Origin: Nitrospirota bacterium
Lineage (GTDB): Bacteria; Nitrospirota; Nitrospiria; Nitrospirales; Nitrospiraceae
Direction of reading: 5' to 3'
NCBI GenBank assembly: GCA_040755395.1
Contig: JBFMAX010000014.1
Span: 1-64,000 of the forward strand
Length of the DNA: 64,000 nt
Shown: in pieces, positions 24,656-51,068 of the stretch
Layout of the letters: each line of letters starts with the position of its first letter
How positions within the stretch are numbered: position 1 is the stretch's first letter
Notes under the pieces: generated by a model
What the model saw: only the letters and a program-made list of their open reading frames with translations
Databases searched by the model: none
Told to the model about the DNA's origin: nothing
Program-made: the position numbers and the translations under genes

Positions 24656-25570
24656 TCAGTGGAAGGACTTTGCGCAGCGGAAACCGATCGTAGCGGACCG
24701 TTGGTCCGGCGGCGCCCCGCCGCGAGTGGCCGCCCGCAGCATGTGGGGCTTGCTCTTCCAGGATCCGCCGCGCACACTCTTGTATCGGCTCAGGGACGGT
24801 CCGCGTGGATTCCGCTCCGGCATGATGGAATAGTAGTCGAATCCGAACCAATCCTGGACCCACTCAGCCACATTGCCTGCCATGTGGCGGAGCCCGTAGG
24901 GGCTCTGTCCTTCTTCTCCGCTGTCCACCGCCGCGACAAGCGGGATCTCATGCACGTGATACTGCCCGAATACGGCCAGTCCCGGCTCGGGCGTCTTGGG
25001 GCCCCAGGGGAACAGGTTGCCCTCGCTGCCGCGGGCGGCCTTTTCCCATTCTGCTTCGGTCGGGAGACGCTTTCCCCGCTTGCGGCAGAAATCGTCGGCC
25101 TCCGCCCAGGTGACATACATCGCGGGCCAGCGGGCCAAGACATAATCGGGCATCGCGTGGACCGTGATCACGTGCCAGATGAGCCGTTGCAGCTCGTCGG
25201 GGATAGACCGGCGCTGTGACCGAAGGTACGCGAGATATTCGGCCAGGCTGACTTCATCGCGGTCTATCTCATAGGCGTCCAGCCAGATGCGCCGCTGCGG
25301 CAGCTCGGTGTCGTCGAACTGGGTTTCCAGCCCGTAGGGGTCGTCGTCCTTTCGATTCGTCCCCATGAGGAACCAGCCTTCCGGGACGGCCACCGTCGGA
25401 GAGAGCTGAGCCAATGCGGCGATCGCAGCGAGGTGTGCGGGCAGGGCAGTCTTCATGTCCGGCCCCGCGGCGCGCACCAAGGACGGCAGCAGGGCGGCGG
25501 TCACGAGCAGGAGGGAAACAACCCGATACTCGGCCGGCCGGTGACGCTCAGAAGGAGGGAGGATACTCAC
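24656..25570 (-). CDS. Formylglycine-generating enzyme (SUMF1)-family exported protein
   Basis: 304 residues with a signal peptide (about 1-35, '[17 protein letters not shown]') and an FGE-sulfatase domain: '[13 protein letters not shown]', '[16 protein letters not shown]', '[20 protein letters not shown]', '[14 protein letters not shown]' and '[11 protein letters not shown]'. True FGE oxidises a sulfatase cysteine using a copper-binding Cys pair. Here only part of the C-terminal cysteine arrangement is seen, so a non-catalytic or different role is likely, as for many bacterial SUMF1-domain proteins. The start overlaps the stop of the coiled-coil lipoprotein gene upstream by four bases. Confidence 0.85.
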
Positions 25571-48160: not shown

Positions 48161-48455
48161 GCCGGTTTCCTGACTCCTGCCATCCTCCTCCGCCGCGATC
48201 CAATAAAACCCCTTTGCCGGTGGGGCGGACGTGAAAGCTGAGGCGCAAAGGCGCCTCGTGCGCCCGGTCTCGGGTGCCGCTTAGGCGCGTCTCTCCGCTA
48301 ACCGGTCGGCAGAATGCGCGTCTTTGCACGTTGTCGCGTGGCACGGTCCTTGTGATGAGAACGGCTTGGGAAGTCGGACGGTTCCGCCCGGGGAGTTGGA
48401 AGCGGAGGCGGGAAAAGCCGGCCACGACGCGTGGTCTTGCGCGGCAGCGCAATTC
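48161..48455. other. Non-coding gap between rodZ and the cytochrome c promoter
   Basis: No gene on either strand. It holds a perfect hairpin GAGGCGC-AAAG-GCGCCTC at 48240-48257 and further GC-rich words (48258-48300), without a T-run. I see no riboswitch that survives inspection. Confidence 0.5.
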
Positions 48456-48485
48456 TTGACAAAGCGCGCGGCTCGTTGCTATAGT
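48456..48485 (+). promoter_or_regulatory. Sigma-70 promoter for cytochrome c
   Basis: TTGACA (48456-48461), 18-nt spacer, TATAGT (48480-48485). This near-consensus promoter leaves a ~105-nt leader before the cytochrome gene. Confidence 0.85.
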
Positions 48486-48599
48486 GCCGCCGCTTCAGCG
48501 GCTTGGATGATCGCTGTCGGCTCATCCGCTTCATTTATTATTTACTCAGGGCACAATATCAACCACGGAGTGGTTCTTCTACAAAAAGGAGGAGTCGTG

Positions 48600-49049
48600 A
48601 TGGGGTATCTGTCGAGGTCTCTTGGTATCTTGACCGCATTCATGTTCGTGACGGCCACGGTGGCTGTCGCCGAGGAACGCGATCCGCTCAAACCCCGGGT
48701 CCCGCCGGATCAGATCGCTGAGGCCAAGGCGCTGAAGAACCCGATCCCGAAAACGCCGGAAAACCTGGCCAAGGGCAAGGCCTTGTTTGAGGGGAAGGGC
48801 ACCTGCTTCAACTGCCACGGCAAGGAAGGGAAAGGTGATGGGCCCGCCGGGCAGATCCTGAACCCCAGCCCGCGCAACTTCACGAACTGCAAGTTCCACA
48901 AGAAGCGGAAGGATGGAGAGCTGTTCTGGGTGATTAAGAACGGCAGCCCGGGCACGGGCATGGTTTCCTTGATCCCTGCCGCCATTACGGAGGAAGAAGC
49001 CTGGACGATCATCAATTACGAGCGGAGCTTCTGCAAAGAAGGCAGCTGA
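48600..49049 (+). CDS. Periplasmic monoheme c-type cytochrome
   Basis: 149 residues from the ATG at 48600 with AGGAGG at 7 nt. Signal peptide (1-24, 'LTAFMFVTATVAVA'). Haem site 'CFNCH' (Cys69, Cys72, His73) and a distal Met in 'GTGMVSLIP'. Class I cytochromes of this size shuttle electrons between periplasmic oxidoreductases and terminal oxidases. Strong promoter and strong terminator indicate a highly expressed, monocistronic gene. Confidence 0.9.
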   Translation: MGYLSRSLGILTAFMFVTATVAVAEERDPLKPRVPPDQIAEAKALKNPIPKTPENLAKGKALFEGKGTCFNCHGKEGKGDGPAGQILNPSPRNFTNCKFHKKRKDGELFWVIKNGSPGTGMVSLIPAAITEEEAWTIINYERSFCKEGS

Positions 49050-49070: not shown

Positions 49071-49108
49071 ACAAAAGGCGGCGGGACCCGAGTCCCGCCG
49101 CCTTTTGT
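49071..49108. terminator. Bidirectional intrinsic terminator
   Basis: A perfect 17-bp stem (49071-49087 with 49092-49108) with loop CCGA. The A-rich left flank and T-rich right flank (ACAAAAGG ... CCTTTTGT) let it work in both directions, for the cytochrome gene and for the converging caspase-like gene. Confidence 0.9.
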
Positions 49109-49151: not shown

Positions 49152-51068
49152 CTACCGAACCTCCGAGAGCGTCCCCCCAGGCCCGGGTTGGGTCAGGATC
49201 ACGCCCGCGACCGCATCCGTCGGTCGCAGGGCCGGCACGATAAGCGGACGTTGCTCCAGGCTGAAGCCCGATTTGGCGGCGGCCGGCACCTTCTGGTCCA
49301 AAAAATCGATCAGTTCGCCCAGCGTCACCGCTCCGTCACGGTTGGCATCGGCGTCGCCTTCCAAGCCGCGGAGCAGATAGTGCGTGAACAATCCATGCCG
49401 GAGCTTGTCAGACTCCAACCCTTTGCCGAATCCGTTGAGACCGATGAGGTGAATCACCCCGTTGTTCGCGGCGTCCCAGCGCGGAGGCTTGCTTTTCGTG
49501 CGGGCGTCTCCGCCGAGCCTGGCCACGCCTCCGTCGAAGATAAAGAGCGTCTGTTTGGGGTGGAGTTTCGCCAGCGCCGCTTCCAGCTCCTTCAGCGGAT
49601 AGAGTCGCGAGGGCGAGGCGCTGCCGCCGTCGTAGGGAACGAGAAAGGTCTCGCCCGTCGACGCGACGAAGGCCTGTCCGGCGAAATAGACGATCACGAG
49701 GGATTCGCCATGCACGCGCGTGGGCAACCAGTCGAGCAGCGCTTCCTCGATGTCCGGCCGCAGGGCCTTCACATCCTGCAGGACCCGTACGTTGGCGGCG
49801 GGAACGCCGCCCAGCGACCGGAACGAGGCGGCAACGTGCTCGGCGTCCCGCGCCGCGTATTTGCGTCCCGGGATCTGTTGATCGCGATAAAGACTGAGTC
49901 CGATCGCGACGACGTAGGTGTCGAGACGGCGGAGGGCGGTCGGAACGGTCGGAGCCGCATCGGCTGCCTCCGGTCTCGAGTCCCTTGAACGGATGGATGC
50001 GGTGAGGGTCTGAACCGGCGCGATGGGAGCCCCCGACGGGTCCAACAGGGTTACCTGCAATTCGCCGCGCTGCGGCTGGATCGACGGCGGGAGCGTGGCG
50101 ACGAATTCGATAGAGCGGGAGTCCCCCGGCTGAAGCGTGCCGACCGGCAGTGTCGTGGCCGGAAATTGCGACACCACCGCCGGTGTGCCCGCAATCGAAG
50201 CGGAGACACCGTGGACGGCCTGTCCGCCGCCGTTTGCCAGGTCGATACGAACCCGAAGGCGTTCGCCTCCCTCCAGAAGAAGATCGCCGTTCTCGTCCAC
50301 CAACGTCGCTTTGAACGAGACGGCGGAGATCGACGATCTCGTCGGGGCGGGCCCCGACGGTGGAACCGCCTGGGCCTGAGCCGCCGGCGCGGGAGGCGCA
50401 GGCGAGACCGTCCGGCTGCCGGACTCATACTGGGCTCGGGCAGCCCGAACGAACTGGGTCGACAGCGCGACCGCCGCCTCGTAGATGAACTCGTCCATAT
50501 TGCCGTAGTTGCACCGACGCTGCGTCGGTTCAAGGATCAGTCGCTGCTTGTGCTGGACGGAGAGCGCTTGTTGGTTCACCACCGTTCCCGAGGCGTCTTT
50601 GAATGTCGCAACGGCTTCCAAGACCAGTTCGGCGGGCACTCGGTCGTAAATATTGTCCGTGAGCAGCTTGAGCCCCGACCGTTGCAAGTCGATGTGTATT
50701 TCATAGGTCGGCGAAGTCGGCTGAGGGTTCGCCCCGGAGGCCGAGACCGACTGGAAGTTTTGCGCGGCCGCGTCGAGCAATACCGACTCCAGTTCGGCGC
50801 CGAGAGGGATTTCGTAAGGACTGTTGCAGGCGTCGATATACTGCGCCCTCGCGTTGGTCAGCGACGGGTCGAACGTCAGCTTCACGGAGACGGGAAGGCG
50901 AGGACCCATGTCCGGCAGCGGCGTGCGCCGAACCAAGCCGGTGAGTTTGTCACAGGCCGTCAGCTCCAGTGCGAGGAGACCCAAAACCACGACGGTGCAG
51001 GTCCGCACGGCGATCCGGTTCGCCGACAACCGAACGTCGGTTGAACGAACACTTCCACGACCGAGCAT
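49152..51068 (-). CDS. Caspase-like (C14) lipoprotein without catalytic dyad, with EF-hand
   Basis: 638 residues from the ATG at 51066-51068; a GTG at 51107 is possible. Lipobox 'LALELTAC'. The N-terminal half resembles curli-type/CsgG-like repeats and a beta-sandwich (~210-365). The caspase domain spans ~370-560: 'YVVAIGLSLYRDQ', 'LVIVYFAGQAF' and 'TLFIFDGGVARLGG'. The catalytic His of 'YxGHG' is replaced by Gln (Gln465) and the Cys of 'DxCxSG' is Gly (Gly514). 'DADANRDGAVTLGELIDFL' is an EF-hand calcium site. Probably a pseudo-protease with a scaffold role. Confidence 0.8.
   Translation of the reverse strand: MLGRGSVRSTDVRLSANRIAVRTCTVVVLGLLALELTACDKLTGLVRRTPLPDMGPRLPVSVKLTFDPSLTNARAQYIDACNSPYEIPLGAELESVLLDAAAQNFQSVSASGANPQPTSPTYEIHIDLQRSGLKLLTDNIYDRVPAELVLEAVATFKDASGTVVNQQALSVQHKQRLILEPTQRRCNYGNMDEFIYEAAVALSTQFVRAARAQYESGSRTVSPAPPAPAAQAQAVPPSGPAPTRSSISAVSFKATLVDENGDLLLEGGERLRVRIDLANGGGQAVHGVSASIAGTPAVVSQFPATTLPVGTLQPGDSRSIEFVATLPPSIQPQRGELQVTLLDPSGAPIAPVQTLTASIRSRDSRPEAADAAPTVPTALRRLDTYVVAIGLSLYRDQQIPGRKYAARDAEHVAASFRSLGGVPAANVRVLQDVKALRPDIEEALLDWLPTRVHGESLVIVYFAGQAFVASTGETFLVPYDGGSASPSRLYPLKELEAALAKLHPKQTLFIFDGGVARLGGDARTKSKPPRWDAANNGVIHLIGLNGFGKGLESDKLRHGLFTHYLLRGLEGDADANRDGAVTLGELIDFLDQKVPAAAKSGFSLEQRPLIVPALRPTDAVAGVILTQPGPGGTLSEVR

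Follow-up and report, generated by a model that had tools for sequence, protein, structure and literature searches.

A Nitrospira lipoprotein family with a caspase fold and a substituted catalytic dyad, possibly acting by binding without cutting

We describe a gene from the window (the whole stretch of 64,000 nucleotides that was analysed) whose product is a predicted lipoprotein with a caspase-like domain of the C14 family, in which both catalytic residues are replaced. The first-pass annotation had proposed a lipid-anchored pseudo-caspase of this kind with its fold motifs kept, and that proposal was borne out by the alignment of Gln465 and Gly514 with the catalytic positions, by the lipobox and by the C14 fold. 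Since the fold has been retained and the dyad lost, while a calcium-type loop and an acidic pocket have been kept, the protein probably binds rather than cuts; the fuller reading, that it is a pseudo-orthocaspase lipoprotein of Nitrospira working by binding, as a scaffold or a receptor, has in our judgement an even chance of being right.

Bacterial pseudo-caspases are known, and few of them have a phenotype. The present family is near-universal, encoded by a single-gene unit and syntenic; its catalytic sites drift while its putative substrate pocket and its calcium loop are fixed, which makes 'binding without cutting' a testable idea. Soils and wastewater plants are settings in which Nitrospira perform both nitrite oxidation and complete ammonia oxidation. 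The case also cautions against annotating such proteins as caspases or cell-death proteases.

Gene and domain architecture

The gene is an intact ORF on the minus strand (window 49152–51068; ATG at 51068, stop at 49152) coding for a 638 amino acid protein; its assignment as a single-gene unit draws on the intact frame, on 80 named orthologues and on dN/dS (below). All protein features given here lie on the same strand. Residues 1–39 (50952–51068) form a predicted signal sequence ending in the lipobox LTAC39. In the alignment of the window protein and the 80 named orthologues, C39 is present in 75/75 rows with a residue at that position, and the residue following it is acidic (D/E) in 53/55 such rows. 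An acidic residue after the lipidated Cys can mean inner-membrane retention in E. coli; the acidic +2 residue may be compatible with such retention here, and the outer-envelope placement given in the first-pass annotation is thus only one of two possible sites, the inner or the outer membrane.

The N-terminal domain (residues 55–215; 50424–50906) has a conserved pair of cysteines, Cys81 (78/78 rows) and Cys186 (80/80 rows). When the full-length model was searched with Foldseek, this domain resembled 2iqi (XCC0632, a DUF330 protein; E = 5.2e-7, TM 0.59 by target length), a representative of the ABC-transport auxiliary, PqiC-like lipoproteins. A Pfam match to DUF330/ABC_trans_aux was found in 0/63 members at E < 0.1, and the domain is DUF330-like, as far as the model goes, in fold only. 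We know of no DUF330/PqiC-like member with a caspase or an Ig part. The middle domain (residues 247–368; 49965–50330) is mostly strand in the full-length model and appears to be an Ig-like module of the CARDB/NEW3 type, Pfam CARDB being found in 29/63 members and NPCBM_assoc in 17/63. It is followed by the pseudo-caspase (C14) domain (about residues 384–600; 49269–49919), which includes the EF loop within its fold.

A caspase fold with a substituted dyad

Pfam Peptidase_C14 matched residues 387–517 (E = 3.8e-4, 20.6 bits, slightly below the curated cut-off of 21.4 bits), and the same model was matched by 52 of the 63 members of the aligned set, with a best E of 3.9e-10. The only NCBIfam result was a weak match of the model 'caspase_w_EACC1', far under its cut-off, in two proteins: a paralogue and the orthologue from N. 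defluvii. An AlphaFold model of the full-length protein, based on an alignment of 63 sequences, reached a pLDDT of 81.3; modelled alone (251 residues, 66 sequences), the caspase domain reached a pLDDT of 93.5 and a pTM of 0.93. Foldseek comparison of the domain model with the PDB returned human MALT1 (E 8.2e-13, TMq 0.66–0.71), plant metacaspase 9 and caspases. We regard the presence of a p20-type alpha/beta caspase fold as confirmed at the level of the predicted structure. Bacterial pseudo-orthocaspases are characterised by having no separate p10 domain. No p10 family was called here; yet the structural matches to MALT1 and caspases span about 250 columns, and the C-terminal half of the domain may be p10-like. 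Against the sequences of solved structures, the full-length profile gave no match and the domain profile gave weak EF-hand matches, one weak metacaspase match and one chance match. The MALT1 paracaspase, the best solved-structure match to the domain, has Ig domains as well; however, it acts as a protease inside the cell and its Ig3 comes after the caspase domain, whereas the Nitrospira protein is a predicted lipoprotein that has lost the dyad and carries its Ig-like domain ahead of the caspase domain.

When the protein was aligned with active relatives (YAGHG...LDSCFSG), Q465 (49674–49676) lined up with the catalytic His and G514 (49527–49529) with the catalytic Cys, which agrees with the residue numbers first assigned. 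The only cysteines in the whole protein are at positions 24, 39, 81 and 186, and the caspase domain contains none. The survey of the dyad covered 81 rows: the window protein and 80 named Nitrospira/Nitrospiraceae loci, including Ca. N. defluvii and N. moscoviensis. The His column is occupied by Q (51 rows), L (26), V (3) and H (1), and the Cys column by I (20), T (19), M (17), A (9), S (5), G (3), V (3), N (2), K (1) and L (1), with one gap; Cys never occurs. Among the 80 orthologues, Cys is thus absent from 80/80 and His from 79/80, and the domain has no other conserved Cys. By entropy, column 514 ranks at the 98th percentile of the domain, among its most variable positions. From the alignment, the protein lacks the catalytic His-Cys dyad that would mark it as an active peptidase.

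The expectation that Gln and Gly would be conserved in place of His and Cys did not hold: four residues alternate at the first position and ten at the second. A fixed Gln/Gly pair forming a new active site is ruled out by the variability of both columns across the 81 rows. A nearby Cys/His pair that could stand in for the dyad was looked for in the sequence and none was found; such a hidden pair is ruled out, as cysteine is missing from the domain and H558, though invariant, is shared with 50/66 active relatives, for which reason we take this histidine to be structural. It might still be supposed that the protein has remained a protease with another nucleophile, Ser or Thr at position 514, with or without the His. 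Thr or Ser does occupy the Cys column in 24/81 rows, a few of the sequences having HS or HT as their pair; but in most rows that column is I, M, A, G or V and the His is replaced by Q or L, and the window protein itself has Q and G, so that we consider this reading very improbable. Chance is excluded as an explanation for either the loss of the dyad or the EF loop, because both features are resolved by the 80 orthologues.

The EF loop and the acidic pocket

The segment DANRDGAVTLGE (D574–E585; 49314–49349) is a canonical 12-residue EF-hand loop, with ligands at positions 1, 3, 5 and 12 and Gly at position 6. It joins helix 560–572 to helix 583–602 in the full-length model. An EF-hand loop had been annotated here beforehand; the loop is real, but it starts two residues later than the string then quoted. 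D574 and E585 are found in 80/80 rows with a residue at these columns and N576 in 78/80. Pfam EF-hand_5 scored 11.2 bits, under its cut-off of 25.9, and a single EF loop was found in the protein. EF-hands usually operate as pairs. In the sample of domains compared, a canonical loop is present at the same columns in 26/64 distinct active C14 domains and in 123/127 pseudo domains. Since the loop lies inside the caspase fold and occurs in active relatives, it is no special acquisition of this family; EF-hand motifs have already been recorded in archaeal orthocaspases (PMC6426788), and the combination is therefore less unusual than the first-pass annotation had made it. What is notable, as judged from the aligned rows, is the contrast between a dyad that drifts and the predicted calcium-ligand residues D574 and E585, which are invariant.

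Basic residues are accommodated by Asp95 and Asp211 in the T. brucei type I metacaspase (cited in PMC6426788). Alignment with metacaspases places D408 (49845–49847), a putative S1-pocket acid in an 'NDA' motif aligned with the metacaspase ND, and D512 (49533–49535), the acid two residues ahead of the lost Cys, at the corresponding positions. D408 is present in 81/81 rows; D512 is present in 79/80 rows and also in 66/66 active relatives. Retention of an acidic pocket has likewise been reported for other pseudo-orthocaspases (PMC6426788). The conservation of D408 and D512 supports binding without cutting, if the correspondence drawn from the alignment is correct; the two residues could instead have been kept for folding.

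The binding reading can be set out as a sequence of steps. The lipobox would anchor the protein to a membrane, in the periplasm; the DUF330-like domain would fix it within an envelope assembly, with the Ig-like domain providing distance; the EF loop, once loaded with calcium, would make its two flanking helices in the caspase fold more rigid; and the old active-site groove would retain a basic peptide or ligand uncleaved, which would give the protein the role of a scaffold or receptor. A more specific version makes these proteins a class of envelope receptors in nitrifying Nitrospira: pseudo-proteases that, depending on calcium, would recognise basic (Arg/Lys) peptides or termini in the periplasm and leave them intact. 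The class would have become established in the order once catalysis had been lost, a single time, and almost all members of the family would have retained it; in this full form we think the idea rather unlikely.

The same features have to be weighed against a purely structural envelope lipoprotein, in which the caspase domain would serve only as a robust alpha/beta unit, calcium in the EF loop would clamp two helices together, and nothing would bind in the groove. The EF loop is indeed unpaired and inside the fold, the old Cys position varies freely, and the Ig and N-terminal domains are strongly conserved. Moreover, among relatives from the order's other families D408 is missing in 10/15 rows, and H558 has often gone as well. 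On the other hand, D408 and D512 are fixed in the Nitrospiraceae clade while the catalytic positions drift. We consider the structural reading possible, though somewhat unlikely.

Distribution, descent and selection

A match was obtained in 95 of the 100 related genomes searched. Within the family, 55/60 genomes (its own included) gave a match with an identity of 41% or more; a small number of these matches are partial and one (in genome G003) contains a stop. Another orthologue (L152:8791-10740) is broken into two reading-frame pieces within the caspase domain, through either a sequencing error or a real disruption. Pairwise dN/dS values range from 0.09 to 0.28 for the whole gene and from 0.07 to 0.24 for the caspase and EF region. 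The gene has been under purifying selection since the dyad was lost, and a degrading pseudogene is ruled out by the values for the caspase region.

A tree was computed for 105 C14 domains; it was midpoint-rooted and obtained by a quick search, and the sequence in which losses occurred on it is therefore inferred. The 46 pseudo rows of this broad family comprise orthologues, paralogues of the L002 type described below and relatives from two further families of the order, and they group in a single clade with a support of 99. This clade is nested among active C14 domains, and the whole tree needs two changes of label, the second being that of a C14-TPR family. As all sampled Nitrospirales proteins of this design fall in one clade among active C14 domains, the dyad would have been lost once and long ago; read most simply, the tree places a single loss of catalysis in the pseudo-caspase lipoprotein family, before the order diversified.

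Relation to known orthocaspases

The dyad is lacking in 858 of 9,994 bacterial orthocaspases (PMC6426788), and the Nitrospirae were listed in 2012 with only 57% dyad conservation (PMC3501461); a bacterial pseudo-caspase is accordingly not as rare an object as had been supposed at the outset. The proteins closest in kind are the bacterial pseudo-orthocaspases (Klemencic et al. 2019, PMC6426788), among them SyOC of Synechocystis (PMC7889975), deletion of which leads to higher tolerance of oxidative stress. These share with the present family a C14 p20-like domain, a substituted dyad and a retained acidic pocket. However, the known sets come mainly from Alphaproteobacteria and Cyanobacteria and have YS, YN, YG, FS or QC dyads (PMC6426788), whereas the predicted lipoprotein described here comes from the Nitrospirales, joins its caspase domain to DUF330-like and Ig-like domains, and belongs to a family in which the residues replacing the dyad vary. 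The string 'Nitrospir' is absent from the main text of PMC6426788. Literature searches on Nitrospira caspases returned survey papers only, with no description of this lipoprotein family, and no solved structure of a bacterial pseudo-caspase was found. We have filed the pseudo-orthocaspases as an already established kind and the Nitrospira lipoprotein family with this architecture as new within that kind.

Other C14 proteins and genomic context

Three C14-like proteins were found in the genome: the pseudo-caspase lipoprotein (QG at the dyad), its 29%-identical paralogue L002 (RS) and L003, a secreted C14-TPR protein (HG). None is an active C14 protein with a Cys, and no other was detected in this genome. 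L002 (G000:C1:236417-238198) has the same architecture as the window protein, and represents a parallel pseudo-caspase family present in many Nitrospiraceae genomes.

Inactive caspases of eukaryotes had been cited at the outset as scaffolds or regulators, and the present protein might likewise be a regulator, a decoy or inhibitor of active caspase homologues in the manner of cFLIP-type pseudo-caspases or of trypanosome MCA4. Active C14 proteins do occur in many Nitrospiraceae genomes, and in one lineage a C14-TPR caspase homologue adjoins the gene. Yet the gene is kept in this genome, where no C14 with a Cys was detected, and the adjoining C14-TPR protein, in which the H is paired with P or G, is a pseudo-caspase too. 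Because the genome has no detected active C14, decoy or regulation of the host's own caspase, in the eukaryotic manner, is unlikely here and was set aside as the main idea; the regulator reading as a whole seems to us quite improbable. The C14-TPR neighbour was also rejected as a partner, being a separate pseudo-caspase family that is not adjacent in this genome. Where it does adjoin the orthologue, in convergent orientation (L134:10910-12313, L136:10871-12274, L137:10871-12274 and L192-L194), it is secreted, has an HP dyad and is about 60% identical to L003, of which it is the orthologue; in this lineage two dead caspases are immediate neighbours.

In the window, a cytochrome c gene converges on this gene from beyond a hairpin of 17 pairs, and on the other side lies a divergent carbamoyltransferase gene. 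The hairpin (49071–49108) is terminator-like, with a T-rich tail, and was called on the plus strand; since it is a near-perfect palindrome between A and T runs, it is probably shared by both convergent genes. A partner was searched for among the neighbours, and a block of cytochrome c, RodZ-like, TPR, PfkB, MtnP and MiaA genes was found to be syntenic at most loci; as the adjacent genes are convergent or divergent, no operon partner is indicated. The neighbouring gene (window 48324–49046) codes for a small cytochrome c that scores 142 bits with the 'cytochrome 579' model (cut-off 280) and is syntenic in 69/80 loci. At one locus (L112:11868-12914), the cytochrome c and RodZ-like genes beside the orthologue are separated by an insertion that codes for an active HC caspase homologue and for a lipoprotein with ankyrin repeats.

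The Nitrospira C14-FGE and other active C14 proteins (L058, L059 and L060) belong to the same C14 subfamily as the window protein and partly have the same EF loop, but their HC dyad is intact. FGE-sulfatase-like domains are numerous in this genome (L058, L059 and some 14 further sites in G000), one being located at window 24656–25570. In a relative, active C14 domains with the EF loop are joined to a domain of this kind in one protein.
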